Source: Bacteroidetes bacterium 2013_40CM_41_45 (GTDB lineage: Bacteria; Bacteroidota; Bacteroidia; AKYH767-A; 2013-40CM-41-45). From it: a stretch of 64,000 nucleotides of DNA. The stretch spans positions 547,501 through 611,500 of the forward strand of contig NGFH01000009.1 in the NCBI GenBank assembly GCA_002215675.1, written 5' to 3'. This document shows, in pieces, positions 24,894-36,297 of the stretch (positions within the stretch are counted from its first letter, which is position 1; every line of letters begins with the position of its first letter). Below the pieces are notes generated by a model. It saw only the letters and a list, made by a program, of their open reading frames with translations. It did no database searches and was not told where the DNA came from. The translations under genes were made by a program, and so were the position numbers.

Positions 24894-27062
24894 ATGGAAT
24901 CCCGTCCTGAAAGCATAAGCCCCAAAGAGGATTTGACCATTCATCAAACCAAAGCGCAGATTTTTTTGCGCTTTCTTAAATTTGGTTTGCTTGCCTGGGG
25001 TGGACCCGTTGCGCAAATAGCAATGATAAAACAGGAACTTGTCGAGGAAGAAAAATGGATTTCAACGGAACGCTTCAACAGGGCACTTTCAGTTTACCAG
25101 GTGTTACCGGGACCTGAAGCCCACGAGCTCTGTGTTTATTTCGGAATGCTTGCAGGCGGCAGATGGGGCGGATTTCTTGCAGGACTTGGTTTTATGCTGC
25201 CCGGTTTTCTTTTCATGCTTTTGTTCACATGGATTTATCTTCAGTTCGGAATTAAGTCGCCCGCATTGCAAGCCGTTTTCACCGGCTTCCAGGTTGCCGT
25301 TATCGCCCTCATTTTTACAGCAGTTTACCGAATAGGCAAACACGCTCTCATTAATAAAAAATTATTCATTATCGGTATAAGTTCTTTCATTGCATATTTT
25401 TTCGGGATAACTTTTTTTATTGCCCTTCCCCTCGCAGGGCTTGCTTATGTTTTATGGATGAAAGGCAAAACAGTTTTAACTGCGCTCATCGGCATTGCGT
25501 TAGTAGTTTCCTGTGTCATTTTATTCACGCCGGAAATTTTCAAACTGCAAACTATCGTTTCGACAAGTATTTCAACCGGAACTGCCAGCCAAACTTCGCT
25601 CATTGTAGTTTTCTTTACAGGTCTCAAAGGTGGATTACTCACTTTCGGAGGTGCATATACAGTTATACCTTTCATTCAGCAGGATGCTGTAGCGCATTAT
25701 GGATGGATGTCCAACCAGCAATTTCTTGATGGCATTGCTCTGTCAGGAATACTTCCCGCACCACTTATTATCTTTTCAACCTTTGTTGGGTATTTTGGAG
25801 GCGGATGGTTAGGAGCAATCATTATGACAGTTGCTATATTTCTTCCGGCTTTTGCATTTACCTTAATCGGTCATAACCTGATGGAAAAAATAATTCACAA
25901 CACTGCGCTCCATAATTTTCTTGATGGTGTCACCGCTGGTGTTATCGGGTTAATTGCACTCACAGCCATGCAGCTTTTCAGAACCACTGTTACTGATTTA
26001 CTTACTGTCGTCATTTTTGCTGTGTCGCTTTTTGTACTATACAGGTTCAAGGCAAAGCTCACTCCTGTATTCGTAATTCTTGGTGCGGGGCTAATCAGCT
26101 TTCTCTGTCTCAATGTTGTCAACGCGCAACCAACCACTCAATATAATTCTTTGAAATTAATTGAAACTATTCCTTTGCCTAACGTAAGCGGACGGATTGA
26201 CCATTTCAGTTTCGATAGCAAGCATCAAATAATTTTTATTGCGGCATTGGGCAACAACACAGTTGAAGCTGTTGACCTGAAAAACAAAAAAATAATCCAC
26301 TCAATAAAAGATTTGCACGACCCGCAGGGAGTTGCTTTTATTCCGGAAAGCAATTCTCTTTTTGTCACAAATGGCGATAATGGTGAGTGTGATGTTTTCA
26401 ATACAGGTTCATTTAAAAAAATCGGTTCGATAAAATTATCGGGCGATGCGGATAATGTTCGTTACGATGCAACGAAGAAAAAAATTTATGTCGGTTACGG
26501 TGATGGTGGCATTGCAATCATTGATGCAACAAATTTCAAGCTGATTAACGAAATAAAACTTTCAGGACATCCTGAATCATTTCAGTTGGATAAGGCAGCA
26601 GATAAAATTTATGTCAATGTTCCGGATGAAAAGCAAATTGAAGTTATTGACTTGGGAAAAAACATCGTAGCGGGCAAGTGGAAAATGACAGAAGCAACAT
26701 CAAATTTCCCGATGTGCTTAGACGAAGCAACCCACCATTTATTCATTGGTTGCCGTCACTCCGCGAAACTTCTGGTGATAGACAGCCAAACCGGAAAAAC
26801 AATTTCATCTTTCGAAATTGACAGCGATGTGGACGACATTTTTTACAACAGCATCGCCAAAGAAATTTATTTAAGTTGTGGCGAAGGATATATTGATGTG
26901 TTCAAGCAAGCAGATTCGGATACATACACAGCGAGTGGAAAAATTTCCACTCATCCTGGAGCAAGAACTTCTCTTTTCATTCCTGAATTGAATCAATTAA
27001 TCGTAGCTTCGCCTTCGGGTTTCAACGGCAATGCTTCACTGTTGATTTTTGAAGTAAAATAA
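24894..27062 (+). CDS. chrA: ChrA-type transporter fused to a YncE-like beta-propeller
   Basis: 722 residues in one uninterrupted frame. Residues ~15-400 form a full two-half ChrA (CHR) anion transporter: first half with FGLLAWGGPVAQIAMI, EKWISTERF and YQVLPGPEA; second half with KGGLLTFGGAYTVIPFIQQD and ALSGILPAPLIIFSTF. ChrA proteins move chromate or related oxyanions across the inner membrane. The last hydrophobic helix ends SFLCLNVVNAQ, a typical Bacteroidota signal-peptide end. Residues ~415-722 follow as a propeller of the YncE/YVTN kind (VSGRIDHFSFDSKHQ, IYVGYGDGGIAIIDA, DEATHHLFIGC). The simplest view is fusion of chrA to a gene for an exported propeller, whose signal helix became the final membrane helix, placing the propeller outside. 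The substrate is unproven. Confidence 0.88.
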   Translation: MESRPESISPKEDLTIHQTKAQIFLRFLKFGLLAWGGPVAQIAMIKQELVEEEKWISTERFNRALSVYQVLPGPEAHELCVYFGMLAGGRWGGFLAGLGFMLPGFLFMLLFTWIYLQFGIKSPALQAVFTGFQVAVIALIFTAVYRIGKHALINKKLFIIGISSFIAYFFGITFFIALPLAGLAYVLWMKGKTVLTALIGIALVVSCVILFTPEIFKLQTIVSTSISTGTASQTSLIVVFFTGLKGGLLTFGGAYTVIPFIQQDAVAHYGWMSNQQFLDGIALSGILPAPLIIFSTFVGYFGGGWLGAIIMTVAIFLPAFAFTLIGHNLMEKIIHNTALHNFLDGVTAGVIGLIALTAMQLFRTTVTDLLTVVIFAVSLFVLYRFKAKLTPVFVILGAGLISFLCLNVVNAQPTTQYNSLKLIETIPLPNVSGRIDHFSFDSKHQIIFIAALGNNTVEAVDLKNKKIIHSIKDLHDPQGVAFIPESNSLFVTNGDNGECDVFNTGSFKKIGSIKLSGDADNVRYDATKKKIYVGYGDGGIAIIDATNFKLINEIKLSGHPESFQLDKAADKIYVNVPDEKQIEVIDLGKNIVAGKWKMTEATSNFPMCLDEATHHLFIGCRHSAKLLVIDSQTGKTISSFEIDSDVDDIFYNSIAKEIYLSCGEGYIDVFKQADSDTYTASGKISTHPGARTSLFIPELNQLIVASPSGFNGNASLLIFEVK

Positions 27063-28250: not shown

Positions 28251-28409
28251 ATGAAAATGCAATGTGAAGTTACAGGCAGCGGAAGGCCTATTGTGCTTGT
28301 GCCGGGCGGCTTAACCGGCTGGGTAAGCTGGGAACCATTTGTAAAAAGTTTTTCTGAAAACAGAACGGTTATCCGCGTATCTGCAAGTGTAAAATCAAAC
28401 GCTGAATGA
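28251..28409 (+). pseudogene. Alpha/beta-hydrolase N-terminal remnant
   Basis: An ATG-started frame of 52 codons reads MKMQCEVTGSGRPIVLVPGG, then LTGWVSWEPFVKSFSE and NRTVIRVSASVKSNAE. This is the opening strand, the oxyanion-loop 'LVPGG' turn and the first helix of an alpha/beta hydrolase, which would normally continue for 200 more residues with the Ser-His-Asp triad. The rest is absent: after VIRV the sequence changes and stops. The stop overlaps the next start (ATGA), so translation may couple to the thioredoxin gene. It is best seen as a deletion relic, though it could serve as a short leader frame. Confidence 0.65.
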
Positions 28410-29407
28410 AACGATCATTTTTTCTCCTGACTCTTACTTTTTATACATTTCAAATTGCCAATGCTCAGAGGACCCTTGCAGTAAGACAGGTAGGATTAAA
28501 TACAGACACGGTGCCTGCCTTAACACTGATGGATGACCCAAATCAAATACCTGAAAGGTTGAACGATTCAACCATACAATTCAATGTTCCACCCACCGGA
28601 AAAGAATGCCTTTTTATTGTGATTGACGCTGGAACAAGATGGTTTACCCGGGTATGGATTGATTCTACAATTTTACACAAGGAATTAATTATAAATTATT
28701 CGAAAGGCACTGCCACTGTAAAAGACGGAAATGAAACAGATAAGGTTTTGGAAAAATTGCTCTTAGTTAATGGTGAAGAAGATGGAACTGAATCAGACAG
28801 TGTTTCGACCGCCTATATTGCAAGGCATCCCGATTCATTTTTTTCACTGTGGTTGGTTTCACATGGGTTGAACAGAAACCATCCAAAGAAAAATCTGCCT
28901 ATTTTAGAAAGCTTAAGTTCAAGGTTAAAAACATATCCGGAATACCGCCAGATGAAAGCTGATATCACCGGGCGTAAATATCCGAACATTGGAGATACCT
29001 TTAAAGAATTTGCACTGCCCGAAAAAAATGATTCTCTTTTTGATTCGAACACAATCAAAAATAAATGGATCCTGCTTGATTTTTGGGCTACCACCTGCGG
29101 GCCCTGTATAAAATCAATGGATGCTTATGTAAGTCTGTACAAAGCGGTGGACACTTCGAAAATTGAATTTATTTCAGTCTCATTGGATCAGAAAAAAGAC
29201 AAGTGGAAGAATTCTGAAACAACGAATAAAATCATTTGGCATTCGGTATGGGAAGAGGATAATTTCTATGGGAACTTATGCCTTAATTATAATGTATATT
29301 CAATACCTTTTTTTATCCTCTTCGACAACGAAAAAAAAATAGTCTTTATAAAAGACGGAGCAGATGAAATTGAAAATATTAAAAAGACTCTGCTATCAAT
29401 CAAATAG
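28406..29407 (+). CDS. TlpA-like thioredoxin-family protein
   Basis: 333 residues with a signal peptide (SFFLLTLTFYTFQIANA). The N-terminal ~200 residues are a helical and strand-rich region like those preceding TlpA/ResA domains in Bacteroidota. Residues ~205-333 are the thioredoxin domain, with DFWATTCGPCIKSMDAYV holding the CGPC redox pair. A cis-proline-type loop is in YNVYSIPFFILFDNE. It should be periplasmic or lipid-anchored and reduce disulfides, for example in cytochrome maturation. The start overlaps the hydrolase remnant by four bases. No cytochrome genes lie near, so the target is unknown. Confidence 0.87.
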   Translation: MKRSFFLLTLTFYTFQIANAQRTLAVRQVGLNTDTVPALTLMDDPNQIPERLNDSTIQFNVPPTGKECLFIVIDAGTRWFTRVWIDSTILHKELIINYSKGTATVKDGNETDKVLEKLLLVNGEEDGTESDSVSTAYIARHPDSFFSLWLVSHGLNRNHPKKNLPILESLSSRLKTYPEYRQMKADITGRKYPNIGDTFKEFALPEKNDSLFDSNTIKNKWILLDFWATTCGPCIKSMDAYVSLYKAVDTSKIEFISVSLDQKKDKWKNSETTNKIIWHSVWEEDNFYGNLCLNYNVYSIPFFILFDNEKKIVFIKDGADEIENIKKTLLSIK

Positions 29408-29724: not shown

Positions 29725-32700
29725 ATGAAAACACTACGTACTCTTTTGGGATGTTTTTTTATCATTTCGACAATTTCTGCTCAAACTGTAAATCCGTTAC
29801 CTGCTTCGGGATGCCACGAAGGAAAATGCCTGAACGTAATGTCGAAGGCGCACGACGCCTCGCGCGATGGCGATGGCGTACTGGGGCAGATATACAACCA
29901 AACTTTATGCGGATTGAATTATACCGCTGCATCGACTATGGTAACGCAGCGTTACACGCCTGCACCGGGCGTAGGGCTTCCGGCAACATTGCCTATTACG
30001 CTTCCTCCCTGTGTTGGCCCCAACGGAATGAATATTCTGCAAGCATATGTTTGGTGGATTGTAAGCTACGATGCAGCTTCGTCTCTTACTCCTACCCTTT
30101 CCATTACAAATCCTAATTCACAAACCAATACATACAACGCAACTCTTGCCGGAACAGCCGGCCCAAAATGCTGGGGCGAAATAGGCACGCGCATTTTCAG
30201 AGCCGATGTAACTACCAACATCAGCGGCAGCGGTAATTATGTGCTTAACATTACCGGCAACACAGTTTACGAAACTGATGGTATTACGCTTCTGATTATT
30301 TACCGCGACCCGTTTGCAATCTACCAGGGCAACCTGATTATTCATGACGGGTTAATTACTGGCATAGGAAACGCTGTTACTCAAACCATAAATAATTTTA
30401 CTGCCTGTGCAAACTCATCGTATGGAAATGGATTTACAATTACGTCAGACAATCAGGACAATGTTATTCCTCCCACACATGATATTACGGTTAACAGCAT
30501 AGCTACAACTTTCCCGAATCTCTTTTGGAATTTTGACACGGCATCAGCGAGTATTCTTGCTGCCCAGACAACTTCCGATTTCGGAATTGCCCCTAACACC
30601 GGTGATTGCTATTCGTGGGGAGTAATGGGATTGTATTACCAGACAACTACTTGTGTTACCTGCACTCCTGCTAATCCTCTTAGCTTAAGCTTCCAGCACC
30701 AGAATGCAAACTGCGGACAGAATAACGGCTCGGCCACTGTAACTGCTACGGGAGGAATTCCTCCGTATACGTATTCGTGGAGCACAGTGCCTCCTCAAAC
30801 CACGGCTACAGCCACAAATCTTGGAGCGGGAACCTACTACGTTACCGTAACCGATTCATCGGGTTGCTTCTCTGCTACGGACTCCGTTGTAATAACCGAC
30901 CCGGGCAATATGGTGCTGAGCACTACAAGTACCAACGTTCTTTGCCACGGCCTTTCAACAGGAAATGCATCCGTTACCATTGTCAGCGGTGGCGCACCCG
31001 GCTTTACATATTCATGGAACACTTCCCCGGTACAAACTTCTGCTTCAGCTTCAAACATGCCGGCTGGAAATTACGTGGTGGTAGTTACTGATGCTAACAA
31101 TTGCACGGCTACTGCATCTGTTCAAATTACCGAGCCGCCACAAATCACCATAACATTCAATAATTTCTCTCACACCTCATGCGGAAATGATAACGGGTCC
31201 ATTTCACCTGACTATGCAGGAGGCGTTGGTCCTTATAACTATTCATGGAATACGGTACCCGTTCAGACCACTGCGTCTATAAGCAATCTTGCTGCAGGAA
31301 CGTATACGGTTGCTGTGACTGATGCAAATGGCTGTACGGTTTCGGCAAGCTTCACTATAAACTCTTCAGCGCCTCCCACAGTGCTGACGTCAGCAACTCC
31401 CCCTGACATTTGCGTTGGACAGTCGACAACAATTTCTGCTATAGGTGCAAATACATACGCGTGGTCGCCGGCTGCAACGTTGAGCTCATCTACGGGAAGT
31501 TCTGTTACTGCCAATCCTGTTGTTACTACTACATACCAGGTTATAGGAACAGACCTTGCAGGCTGCACGGATACTGCTTTCATAACGGTAACGGTAAACC
31601 CGCTTCCGCTGGTTGCTTCACCTCCCTCACCGGAAATTTGTGCGGGCGGAACGGTGACGATAACCATGTCAGGGGCAGATTATTACCGCTGGTCCCCTCA
31701 AACAGGACTTAGCAATCCCAATGGCCCTGACAGTACTTCTGTTGATGCTACATTAAATACTACCACAACCTATACCGTTACTGGATTTTCGCTTGAGGGC
31801 TGTTCTGCAACGACAACCGTAACCGTAACTGTTAACCCTATTCCCGTTCCGGTCATCACACCCGATGGCCCTACTTCATTCTGTGCCGGTGGTTCTGTTA
31901 ATCTCACCGCAAGCGGTGGAACAAGTTTCCTCTGGTCAAATAATTCAACCGGAGCGACTATCGCGGTCAATGCCTCGGGAACGTATACCGTTACCGTTAC
32001 TGCAAATAACTGTACCGCATCCACGTCACAAATTGTAACGGTTAATCCATTGCCTTCCGCAGTAATTTCTCCTGCAGGCCCTGTTTTGATTTGTTCAAAC
32101 AATACCGCTACACTTACTGCTAACAGCGGCCCGGGTTATACATATCAATGGTATATGAATAATACTGTTCTTACCGGTGAAATCAACCAGCAGTTAAGCG
32201 TTTCCACAATAGGATTGTATTCTGTTATTGTTACTGATGCCAATAACTGTTCTGCAAGTTCATCGCAGGTGCAGGTTCTGCAGGGAACGGGACCAGTGGT
32301 TACCATCCTGGGACCGCCCCAGGTAGGCTGTTTGCAGAATACCATTTACATTGGTTATGGCCCGCAGAGTGCAACGCTCACTGCAGTAAGCTCTACTGCT
32401 GTATCGTATCTCTGGTCAACCGGAGCTACAACGCAATCTATCTCTGTAACAACTTCAGGCACCTACAGTGTAACGGCTTATGATGTTAACGGCTGCCCGT
32501 CAGATTCAACCCCGGATTCGCAAATCACTATTACCGTAATTGACATCCGCTGCGGGCATGGCTTGAAGAAAATTTTATTCTGTCACGTTCCGGAAGGGAA
32601 TCCCGGTAATCCTCAAACCATTTGCATTCCTGCAACTGCCGTAGCTATGCACCTGGCATTGCACCAGTATGATTGCATCGGCCCTTGCTCACTATACTAT

Positions 32701-32967
32701 AGAATGGCAGATATGAATGAGGACGATTTGAACGGTTTGGTTTCGATTTATCCGAATCCATCTAACAACACGTTTACCATAACCACCAATATGCATTCCG
32801 GTGAAGCGGTTCAATTGAAAGTGTTTGACGTGACAGGGCGAATGGTTTACTCAGAAAATATTCTCTCGGAAAAAACAGAAATTGGCGCTGACTTAGGTAA
32901 AGGTGTCTACCATGTTGAAATTATTTCGGGTGAAACATCTGCTGTATATAAGATTGTAAAATTATAA
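29725..32967 (+). CDS. Secreted Ig/SprB-repeat protein with type A type IX tail
   Basis: 1080 residues with a signal peptide (LRTLLGCFFIISTISAQ). An unrecognised N-terminal domain of ~290 residues (CHEGKCLNVMSKAHDASRDG, AYVWWIVSYDAAS) is followed by SprB-like repeats (GGIPPYTYSW, GTYYVTVTDSSGC, GNYVVVVTDANNC, GTYTVAVTDANGC) and Ig-like repeats (CVGQSTTISAIGANTYAWSP). A Cys/His-rich stretch (RCGHGLKKILFCHVPEGNPG, HLALHQYDCIGPC) precedes the type A sorting domain (VSIYPNPSNNTF, VFDVTGRMVYSE). It should be carried outside by the type IX system. SprB repeats occur in gliding adhesins, but a gliding role here is inference. The C-terminal ~300 residues recur in the next gene. Confidence 0.9.
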   Translation: MKTLRTLLGCFFIISTISAQTVNPLPASGCHEGKCLNVMSKAHDASRDGDGVLGQIYNQTLCGLNYTAASTMVTQRYTPAPGVGLPATLPITLPPCVGPNGMNILQAYVWWIVSYDAASSLTPTLSITNPNSQTNTYNATLAGTAGPKCWGEIGTRIFRADVTTNISGSGNYVLNITGNTVYETDGITLLIIYRDPFAIYQGNLIIHDGLITGIGNAVTQTINNFTACANSSYGNGFTITSDNQDNVIPPTHDITVNSIATTFPNLFWNFDTASASILAAQTTSDFGIAPNTGDCYSWGVMGLYYQTTTCVTCTPANPLSLSFQHQNANCGQNNGSATVTATGGIPPYTYSWSTVPPQTTATATNLGAGTYYVTVTDSSGCFSATDSVVITDPGNMVLSTTSTNVLCHGLSTGNASVTIVSGGAPGFTYSWNTSPVQTSASASNMPAGNYVVVVTDANNCTATASVQITEPPQITITFNNFSHTSCGNDNGSISPDYAGGVGPYNYSWNTVPVQTTASISNLAAGTYTVAVTDANGCTVSASFTINSSAPPTVLTSATPPDICVGQSTTISAIGANTYAWSPAATLSSSTGSSVTANPVVTTTYQVIGTDLAGCTDTAFITVTVNPLPLVASPPSPEICAGGTVTITMSGADYYRWSPQTGLSNPNGPDSTSVDATLNTTTTYTVTGFSLEGCSATTTVTVTVNPIPVPVITPDGPTSFCAGGSVNLTASGGTSFLWSNNSTGATIAVNASGTYTVTVTANNCTASTSQIVTVNPLPSAVISPAGPVLICSNNTATLTANSGPGYTYQWYMNNTVLTGEINQQLSVSTIGLYSVIVTDANNCSASSSQVQVLQGTGPVVTILGPPQVGCLQNTIYIGYGPQSATLTAVSSTAVSYLWSTGATTQSISVTTSGTYSVTAYDVNGCPSDSTPDSQITITVIDIRCGHGLKKILFCHVPEGNPGNPQTICIPATAVAMHLALHQYDCIGPCSLYYRMADMNEDDLNGLVSIYPNPSNNTFTITTNMHSGEAVQLKVFDVTGRMVYSENILSEKTEIGADLGKGVYHVEIISGETSAVYKIVKL
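32062..32964 (+). repeat. C-terminal cassette, copy 1
   Basis: Codes for about 300 residues, from VISPAGPVLICSNN to the end of the sorting domain, that recur in the next gene (35395-36294). The most conserved block, GCLQNTIYIGYGPQS to HVPEGNPGNPQT, is nearly identical in protein and similar in DNA, showing tandem gene duplication. Confidence 0.85.
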
Positions 32968-32972
32968 CGATG

Positions 32973-33005
32973 AAAAACTCCTCTCCTGGTGAGAGGAGTT
33001 TTTTT
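32973..33005 (+). terminator. Intrinsic terminator between the two surface genes
   Basis: AACTCCTCTC (32976-32985) and GAGAGGAGTT (32991-33000) pair perfectly around a five-base loop, followed by seven T in all. It is the strongest terminator in the window and separates the two paralogous genes into independent transcripts. Confidence 0.92.
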
Positions 33006-33075
33006 GTATATTTAACTTCTCATCAACCTTAAATTCTAAACTTCAAACAACAAATTTCAAACCCCGTATCGCTCC

Positions 33076-36000
33076 ATGAAAAATTTACTCGCAACAATTT
33101 TGATTTTGATTTTCCCATTTCATGTTTTACTTGCACAGCCTGGTTGCCCTAATGTAACTGTTGCGCCGACCAACGTTTCAATCTGCAGCGGCTGCACTAT
33201 GCTTTCGGCCACCGTGCAAGGAACCGTTGCTACAACTTCGTATGCTGTAGATAGCATTCCGTATACACCGTTTTCATTCAATTCGGGGACCCCGCTTCTT
33301 ATTGGCATTGACGACCACTGGTCTGACACTATTCCGCTTCCTTTCTGTTTTGATTTTTTCGGAACCACTTACACGAAGTGCATTGTCGGCTCCAATGGAT
33401 GCATCGGGTTTAATATTATTAATGCAAACACCTATAATACCTGGCCCATAAATGCTGCTATCCCATCCATCACTCCTGCCGACATGCTTAATACGATTAT
33501 GGGCCCCTGGCACGATGTCGACCCAAGTGTTACTACGGATACCGTACAATTTTATGAGCTGCAGGGAACGGCTCCATGCAGGCGGCTTGTGGTTTCATGG
33601 TATCACGTTCCAATGTTTCAATGCAATAACCTTATCGCTACTCACCAGATTGTATTGTATGAAACAACCAATATCATAGAAATTTATATTCAGGATAAAC
33701 CCATTTGTATTACGTGGAACGCTGCCGCAGCCATTGAAGGAATCCAGGATAATACAGGCACCCAGGCCTATGTGGTTCCCGGAAGAAATTATCCCTCCGT
33801 TTGGACTGCAACAAATGATGCATGGCGTTTTACTCCTTCCGGTACGCCTCAATATTCATTTGGATGGTACCAGGGAAGTAATCTTATAAGCAGTAATGAT
33901 ACTGTTACCGTGTGTCCCAGCGCCACCACTACGTATACTGCTCAGTTGGTAAACAATGCCTGTGGCGGACCGGTTACCGTAAGTGCTCAAGCAACCGTTA
34001 CTGTAAATCCTGCATTTTCCCTCGCAACAACTTCCACACCCACGATTTGCAATGGAAACAACGGAACAGCATCTGTGACCATCACGGGTGGAGCGCCACA
34101 GTTTTCTTTTGCATGGAGCACCACTCCGATTCAAACCACGCAAACTGCTACGGGACTTGCTGCGGGTTCATATACGGTTACTGTTACTGATGCTAACGGC
34201 TGCACAGGAACTTCTACGGTTGTTGTCAACTCAACAAGTTCACTTAATGTAAGTGCATCGGTTACCGGGCCAAACCCGATTTGTATGGGTCAAAACACTA
34301 CTATCACTTCAAACATAACAGGAGGAACTCCTCCATATAATTATTCATGGACTCCTTCGGCAACGCTGAGTTCATCCACATCACAATCGGCAATCGCTAC
34401 ACCAACTGCAACAACCACATATACAATCAGCATAACAGATTCAAACAATTGTGTGTCTGTTGCAACGGTTGCTGTTACTGTAAATCCTCTGCCGACTGTA
34501 ACTCCCTGCAGCAATACTTCTATTTGCGTTGGTGATTCTTCCTTGCTTTGTGTAACTGGAGCCGACAGCTATACGTGGTCTCCTGCAACAGGATTGAGCG
34601 CAACCACCGGCAGCAGCGTAATGGCAAGTCCTGCGGTAACGACAACCTATACGATTATCGGGCAGAATAATAATACACTCTGTTCAGACACGGCTTCCAT
34701 CACCGTTACAGTAAATCCGCTTCCGCTCGTTGCTACGCCTCCTGCCCCAGTCATCTGCTCCGGCAGCTCAGTGCAAATATGCATGTCAGGTGCACTGACC
34801 TATCATTGGCAACCACAAAGCGGAATCACCAGCGCTTCCGGGCCTGACAGTTCTTGCGTTACAGTTACTCTGACTTCAACCGCCACATATACGGTAACAG
34901 GATTTTCAGCAGAAGGATGTTCTGCAAGCATTACCGTTACAGTTACTGTTAACCCGAACCCGGTTCCTGTAATTATTCCGCAAGGGCCCCTGGTTTTCTG
35001 CTCAGGAGGTTCAGTTAACCTGCAGGCAACTCCGACCGGAACGTATGTATGGAACAATTCTGCTTCTACACAAATCATTAATGTAACCGCAAGCGGAACA
35101 TTTACGGTTACCGTTACCGATGCCAATGGATGTTCAGGAATTTCTGCTCCGGTCAGTGTAACAGTTAACCCGTTGCCAACGCCAACCATTTCGCCTGCAA
35201 TTCCGATATTCTGCCAGGGCGATTCTGCTATTCTCACTGCTGGCGGCGGAACAAGTTTCTTGTGGTCAAACAACAGTTCATCACAAAACATAATTGTATA
35301 TACCAGCGGAACGTACACTGTAACAGTAACCGATAGCAACGGATGTATCAGTTCAACTTCAGTAAATGTTACAGCCAGTCCTCCGCCTCCTGCAGTTATT
35401 TCTCCTGCCGGGCCTATTTTGATTTGTTCAAATAATCCTGCAACTCTTACTGCTAACAGCGGCCCCGGGTATACTTACCAGTGGTACTTAGATGGTAATC
35501 CAATAGCCGGCGCTGTTAATGCGCAATATTCTACTTCAACTACAGGAATGTATTCTGTACGCGTTACAGATGCAGCCGGCTGCACATCGCTGTCACAGGA
35601 AGTGCAGGTTATGCAAGGCTTAGGTCCTGATGTAGTTATTGTAGGCCCTCCGGCTTTTGGATGTCTGCAAAACACCATCTATATTGGTTACGGTCCTCAA
35701 AGCATTACGCTTACTGCTGTTAGCAGCACTGCCGTATCATATTTATGGTCTACAGGCGCAACAACACAATCTATTTCTGTTACAACCTCTGGCACGTACA
35801 GTGTTACTGCTTATGATGTTAACGGTTGCCCGTCTCCGCAAACACCAGAGTCCCAAATAACAATTAACGTTATTGATATCCGTTGCGGGCATGGTTTGAA
35901 GAAAATTATTCTCTGCCACGTTCCGGAAGGAAACCCCGGTAACCCGCAGACATTATGCCTTGCACCTTCGGCAATTCCTCATCACCTGGAGCATCATCAA

Positions 36001-36297
36001 TACGATTGTCTCGGGCCTTGTTCACTATACTATCAGCGTACAAGCTCCCCAATGGATGATGAGCTAAAAGTTACGCTCTATCCTAATCCATTCAGCAATA
36101 CATTTATAGTAAGCATTGACAATCCGGACGGGGAAAATATTATAATGAATATGTATGACGTAACGGGAAGAGCAATTATTTCGGGAATGAAGCTTACCGA
36201 CAACATTGAACTTGGCGCTGACCTTAGCAAGGGTGTTTACAATGTTGAAATCATTGTGGGAGAAAAACGAGACTTCTACAAAATTGTAAAGCTCTGA
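33076..36297 (+). CDS. Secreted Ig/SprB-repeat protein with type A type IX tail, paralogue
   Basis: 1073 residues with a signal peptide (LATILILIFPFHVLLAQ). The N-terminal ~260 residues have the 'IPLPFCFDFFGTTYTKCIVG' and SNGCIGFN pattern of nidogen-like or glycan-recognition modules at the head of Bacteroidota surface proteins. SprB-like repeats (GGAPQFSFAW, GSYTVTVTDANGC, GTFTVTVTDANGC) and Ig-like modules follow, then the Cys/His-rich segment (RCGHGLKKIILCHVPEGNPG, HHLEHHQYDC) and a type A sorting tail (VTLYPNPFSNTF, MYDVTGRAI). It differs from its neighbour at the head and matches it at the tail, so the pair has a shared export or anchoring end and divergent binding ends. The stop is seven bases from the convergent asnB stop. 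Confidence 0.9.
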   Translation: MKNLLATILILIFPFHVLLAQPGCPNVTVAPTNVSICSGCTMLSATVQGTVATTSYAVDSIPYTPFSFNSGTPLLIGIDDHWSDTIPLPFCFDFFGTTYTKCIVGSNGCIGFNIINANTYNTWPINAAIPSITPADMLNTIMGPWHDVDPSVTTDTVQFYELQGTAPCRRLVVSWYHVPMFQCNNLIATHQIVLYETTNIIEIYIQDKPICITWNAAAAIEGIQDNTGTQAYVVPGRNYPSVWTATNDAWRFTPSGTPQYSFGWYQGSNLISSNDTVTVCPSATTTYTAQLVNNACGGPVTVSAQATVTVNPAFSLATTSTPTICNGNNGTASVTITGGAPQFSFAWSTTPIQTTQTATGLAAGSYTVTVTDANGCTGTSTVVVNSTSSLNVSASVTGPNPICMGQNTTITSNITGGTPPYNYSWTPSATLSSSTSQSAIATPTATTTYTISITDSNNCVSVATVAVTVNPLPTVTPCSNTSICVGDSSLLCVTGADSYTWSPATGLSATTGSSVMASPAVTTTYTIIGQNNNTLCSDTASITVTVNPLPLVATPPAPVICSGSSVQICMSGALTYHWQPQSGITSASGPDSSCVTVTLTSTATYTVTGFSAEGCSASITVTVTVNPNPVPVIIPQGPLVFCSGGSVNLQATPTGTYVWNNSASTQIINVTASGTFTVTVTDANGCSGISAPVSVTVNPLPTPTISPAIPIFCQGDSAILTAGGGTSFLWSNNSSSQNIIVYTSGTYTVTVTDSNGCISSTSVNVTASPPPPAVISPAGPILICSNNPATLTANSGPGYTYQWYLDGNPIAGAVNAQYSTSTTGMYSVRVTDAAGCTSLSQEVQVMQGLGPDVVIVGPPAFGCLQNTIYIGYGPQSITLTAVSSTAVSYLWSTGATTQSISVTTSGTYSVTAYDVNGCPSPQTPESQITINVIDIRCGHGLKKIILCHVPEGNPGNPQTLCLAPSAIPHHLEHHQYDCLGPCSLYYQRTSSPMDDELKVTLYPNPFSNTFIVSIDNPDGENIIMNMYDVTGRAIISGMKLTDNIELGADLSKGVYNVEIIVGEKRDFYKIVKL
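35395..36294 (+). repeat. C-terminal cassette, copy 2
   Basis: Second copy of the ~300-residue end shared with the upstream gene (32062-32964), including GCLQNTIYIGYGPQS, RCGHGLKKI and HVPEGNPGNPQT. Spacing and order of modules are the same in both copies. Confidence 0.85.

Follow-up and report, generated by a model that had tools for sequence, protein, structure and literature searches.

Proteins A and B, encoded by tandem genes in the window (the whole 64,000-nucleotide stretch of DNA analysed here), share a C-terminal cassette in which a Cys/His module follows an Ig-like domain. The reading we favour, with a probability of roughly 0.6, is that this module is a shuffled extracellular mini-domain with a disulfide clamp and a putative metal site, and that it caps an Ig stalk before the T9SS tail. 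Apparently, the module represents a widespread extracellular domain family that has gone undescribed, along with an Ig-plus-module cassette specific to Bacteroidota.

Layout of the tandem genes

Protein A consists, in order, of a signal peptide, a unique head, SprB and Ig_7 repeats, an Ig-like 'GYGPQ' domain, the Cys/His module and a T9SS type A tail. Protein B has the same layout behind a different head. The features are as follows.

29725..32967, + strand: protein A, 1080 aa (ORF list; Pfam/NCBIfam)
29725..30636, + strand: head of protein A, 304 aa (BLASTP, Pfam)
32299..32538, + strand: Ig-like 'IYIGYGPQ' domain of A, aa 859-938, first half of the cassette
32539..32700, + strand: Cys/His module of A, aa 939-992
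32746..32961, + strand: T9SS type A sorting domain of A, aa 1008-1079 (TIGR04183, 63.1 bits)
33076..36297, + strand: protein B, 1073 aa (ORF list; Pfam/NCBIfam)
33076..33978, + strand: head of protein B, 301 aa (BLASTP, Pfam)
35632..35871, + strand: Ig-like 'IYIGYGPQ' domain of B, aa 853-932 (AF2; VIA-align)
35872..36033, + strand: Cys/His module of B, aa 933-986 (sequence; AF2)
36076..36291, + strand: T9SS type A sorting domain of B, aa 1001-1072 (TIGR04183, 39.4 bits)

Both proteins begin, as judged by eye, with a signal-peptide-like N-terminus, and Pfam and NCBIfam place SprB and Ig_7 repeats in each. The original prediction gave both proteins a type A sorting tail and unrelated N-terminal heads, and both points were borne out: the TIGR04183 scores of A and B exceed the cut-off of 23 bits, while BLASTP detected no relatedness between the heads (best E = 7.0) and no Pfam model matches either one. 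The genome also encodes the T9SS core protein SprA at full length (TIGR04189, 2761 bits). Given their tails and the presence of SprA, A and B are likely T9SS type A cargo, with export and tail cleavage predicted for both. The key module residues are C943, C953-H954, C967, H976, H980, D983, C984 and C988 in A, and C937, C947-H948, C961, H970, H973/H974, D977, C978 and C982 in B.

The gene lying 317 bases 5' of protein A on the same strand (28406-29407, +; Pfam) encodes a thioredoxin-like protein that has a signal-like start, carries a CGPC motif and might act on these Cys-rich proteins. A 722-aa ORF at 24894-27062 (+) combines, by eye, a ChrA-like transporter and a YVTN-type beta-propeller in a single frame, through either a natural fusion or a lost stop.

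Conservation and age of the shared cassette

A common C-terminal cassette of ~300 residues had been proposed for the two proteins. The shared end is real, but the similarity starts earlier, in the Ig-like arrays: the alignment of A and B already begins in the SprB/Ig_7 arrays, well upstream of the last 300 residues, and identity rises from ~50% to 97% around GCLQNTIYIGYGPQS. Identity is 89% in the Ig-like domain, 76% in the Cys/His module and 48% in the sorting tail; conservation between A and B peaks in the Ig-like 'GCLQNTIYIGYGPQS' domain together with the module, not in the tail.

Between the two cassettes dN is 0.11-0.15, and dS runs from 1.6 to saturation. Silent sites at or near saturation in a protein sequence that has been held mean that the cassette is old and under strong purifying selection. 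It is this old selection, not chance, that keeps the two cassettes alike. Recent gene conversion or copying between A and B is ruled out by the saturated silent sites.

A module family in exported proteins of Bacteria and Archaea

The family search was made with a generic profile, earlier patterns derived from the window having been too exact (0 matches in genomic and viral contigs). It returned 363 confirmed loci in Bacteria and Archaea, of which the best 80 were retained, and the module has the consensus 'CHxPPGNPxxxxTIxVxxxAVxAHLxHGDxxGxC'. Bacterial sources include Ignavibacteria, Planctomycetota, Myxococcales, Acidobacteria, Chloroflexi, Fibrobacteres, Gemmatimonadetes, Nitrospirae and Delta-, Zeta- and Gammaproteobacteria; archaeal sources are of the Nitrosopumilus type (Thaumarchaeota), Nanoarchaeota and Pacearchaeota, and the module is also found on haloarchaeal plasmids. 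The four plasmid carriers seen are annotated as hypothetical or named after a neighbouring repeat. A proposed relative, 'CHATGS..NPY', had no plasmid match, though one locus (L080) resembles it. Neither phages nor PHROGs gave a module match.

The spread across the sampled phyla is patchy. Within the window's phylum, at least 25 of 395 evenly sampled genomes carry the module; in the phyla to which a Kofleriaceae, a Nitrosopumilaceae and a Planctomycetota genome belong, at least 17 of 140, 8 of 151 and 8 of 149 do, respectively. The segment had been expected to recur in other Bacteroidota surface proteins; it does, and its range reaches far beyond Bacteroidota. The profile search, which had been named beforehand, shows that the module is not confined to the two copies and that its Cys and His residues are conserved in relatives.

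Most module proteins with a visible start region have a hydrophobic N-terminus (67/78); for several of the remaining 11, translation from a non-ATG start would apparently supply one. The Pfam domains found alongside the module are diverse, and most are extracellular. Some members are stand-alone secreted proteins of 72-100 aa, in which the module is flanked only by a signal peptide and a short tail. The module is probably an independent extracellular mini-domain, ~40-55 residues long, that shuffling has spread among the exported proteins of many phyla of Bacteria and Archaea.

In Ignavibacteria-type genomes (L094, L095, L099, L106, L117), the module occurs in pilin-like proteins of ~465 aa within a conserved pilin-like gene cluster; L071 appears to belong to that protein family, with its site dead. 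Outside these clusters, the gene neighbourhoods contained no functional-looking common partner. In two Myxococcota loci (L184, L186), the module stands immediately before a MopE-like 'YYxDxDGDGxGD' motif and its own last Cys is absent.

Position of the module and T9SS export

Within the genome the module is encoded nine times, each time in a different protein (E down to 1.5e-32). Eight directly precede a T9SS tail, every one behind a different head. The ninth (L046), of the plain form CHIPPGDPLDAHTICISPHAVPAHLAHGDHLGEC, is internal, and Ig-like sequence continues after it. Among the sampled Bacteroidota, several families repeat the complete arrangement of GYGPQ Ig-like domain, module and tail.

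In T9SS proteins the module usually lies ~90-110 residues from the C-terminus, immediately before the sorting tail, as might be expected of an anchoring or sorting element that aids T9SS export or surface attachment. The original prediction had likewise suggested that the segment may anchor the protein. We regard such a role as very improbable. Just 8 of the at least 150 type A tails in the genome directly follow a module, and L046 is internal. Across the family the module may be internal, near the N-terminus or stand-alone, and beyond Bacteroidota its place in the protein is unrestricted and its hosts include phyla for which no T9SS is known. Anchoring is an unlikely function for a module that is so freely placed and can occur where sorting signals are absent.

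For the capping mini-domain that we favour, the tail would do the sorting and any anchoring, the module would be the last folded domain of A and B ahead of it, and the Ig-plus-module cassette would cap the Ig stalk. In T9SS cargo generally the tail is cleaved off. The module would then become the last domain, which fits a capping role.

Predicted fold

AlphaFold2 models both the module of protein B (pLDDT 91-95 over most of its length) and a stand-alone module (pLDDT 88.8) as beta-beta-alpha. The elements follow in the order of a strand with CH, a strand with the TIC position, a helix with the first His, and then the second His and the Asp. A beta-beta-alpha fold is thus confidently predicted for the module. 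Searched alone, this fold had no significant match in the PDB (none at E <= 0.001) or BFVD; the best VIA Z was 3.2. Such a lack of matches is no proof that the fold is new. The Ig part of B is modelled as an Ig fold, with VIA-align Z of ~7-8 to Ig domains, including Aureispira GhpA, a likeness that may reflect only a common arrangement. Matches to the whole cassette were dominated by Ig domains.

Cysteines and a separate His-His-Asp set

The cysteines of CH and GxC are the most constant residues of the module, at 99%, although profile searches favour conserved members and module conservation is somewhat overstated as a result. All 39 loci that fit the N-half but not the C-half pattern have His-His-Gly-Asp and the last Cys, and CH is present in all 16 loci that fit the C-half pattern only. 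The CH and GxC cysteines probably form the disulfide of the clamp. The TIC Cys is always accompanied by an upstream Cys (31/31), which is found in only 15 of 126 modules without the TIC Cys; the two behave as a disulfide pair would. A second disulfide, between the RCG and TIC cysteines, is accordingly a candidate mainly in Bacteroidota. In modules of the window type, HxxxHxxD replaces HxxHGD and the Asp is followed by an additional Cys (D-C-x-G-x-C; D-C-x-G-P-C), as it is in order-level relatives (L077, L078, L045). They have five cysteines, an odd number, so two disulfides leave one unexplained, with no partner identified.

More than 90% of modules, in Bacteria and Archaea alike, retain the two His and the Asp. 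In seven modules all three are lost jointly (L081, L085, L087, L052, L067, L075, L065), and in three both His are lost and the Asp retained (L071, L084, L191). All ten modules without both His retain both main Cys, and eight of the ten keep the His of CH. Co-loss of His29 and His32 is strongly non-random (Fisher p = 1.5e-13; 9e-7 at 65% identity clustering), in tests where ancestry was handled by clustering only. The losses fall in at least four groups, namely families f1, f9 and f18 and the genome behind L191. In one protein, that of L191, a dead module stands in tandem with an intact one. Conversely, five modules without a nearby final Cys retain His-His-Asp. With joint loss while the cysteines are kept, and the converse, the simplest reading is that His-His-Asp forms a site separate from the cysteines.

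These patterns also bear on a purely structural, disulfide-knotted capping domain, in which the histidines pack or bind nothing. The near-invariance of the cysteines would suit such a domain, and the ten variants show that the scaffold tolerates loss of the His set. However, the wide retention of His-His-Asp, its loss jointly and not singly, and its persistence in the five modules that lack the final Cys make this alternative unlikely.

For the metal-binding mini-domain, the site would comprise the His at the helix end, the next His and the Asp (HxxHGD, or HxxxHxxD in the window), probably joined by the His beside the first Cys. From two His and an Asp in an exported domain, its ligand is most likely a divalent metal, e.g. 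zinc, a step that leans on general knowledge of metal sites; clusters of His may equally serve ligand binding or packing. The suggestion that the Cys/His segment may bind a metal therefore finds indirect support in the co-loss of His, His and Asp, although the roles of Cys and His seem to be distinct.

The conserved His-His-Asp and Cys-His set in an exported domain might instead mark a ligand-binding or catalytic micro-domain (e.g. for heme, copper or a glycan), and some Myxococcota copies do directly precede a MopE-like metal-binding repeat. This appears improbable, as the module is very small, its partner domains are highly varied, and the c-type heme motif CXXCH is absent from the consensus and from the 27 modules of alignment A2.

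Comparison with known domains and systems

With 57 diverse modules as queries, nothing convincing was found in Pfam (best E 0.081) or NCBIfam (best E 0.072). A sequence search of the PDB gave chance-level matches only; KPC beta-lactamase (E = 0.06) was considered as a relative and taken as chance. A literature text search for the module's motif strings, covering text outside closed access, found no paper. We put it at about even odds that the module defines an undescribed family of disulfide-clamped extracellular metal-binding mini-domains common to Bacteria and Archaea, which would have passed from one secreted architecture to another, also occur alone and include natural 'site-dead' members. 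Although the motif is so constant, is found in many bacterial and archaeal phyla and can stand by itself in proteins of 72-100 residues, two major domain libraries have no model for it. A module profile would allow many secreted proteins to be annotated at once, and the natural variants with Cys but without His-His-Asp are ready-made controls for metal-binding tests.

Among known systems, A and B share a signal peptide, a repeat stalk and a type A tail with T9SS type A cargo (TIGR04183 / PF18962; SprB, Ig_7), but the matched models do not cover their Ig plus Cys/His cassette before the tail. The module resembles C2H2 zinc fingers in size, in the beta-beta-alpha succession of its elements and in having Cys on the hairpin and His at or close to the end of the helix. 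It differs in being extracellular and in having no CxxC knuckle, cysteines that behave as disulfide pairs and no significant fold match: CH lies on strand 1, there is no CX2-4C on the hairpin, and the RCG Cys co-varies with the TIC Cys. The MopE-type motif (PF11617), which adjoins the module in Myxococcota, is likewise short, extracellular and metal-related, but is built of Asp-rich DxDGDG loops without the His-His-Asp set of the module.
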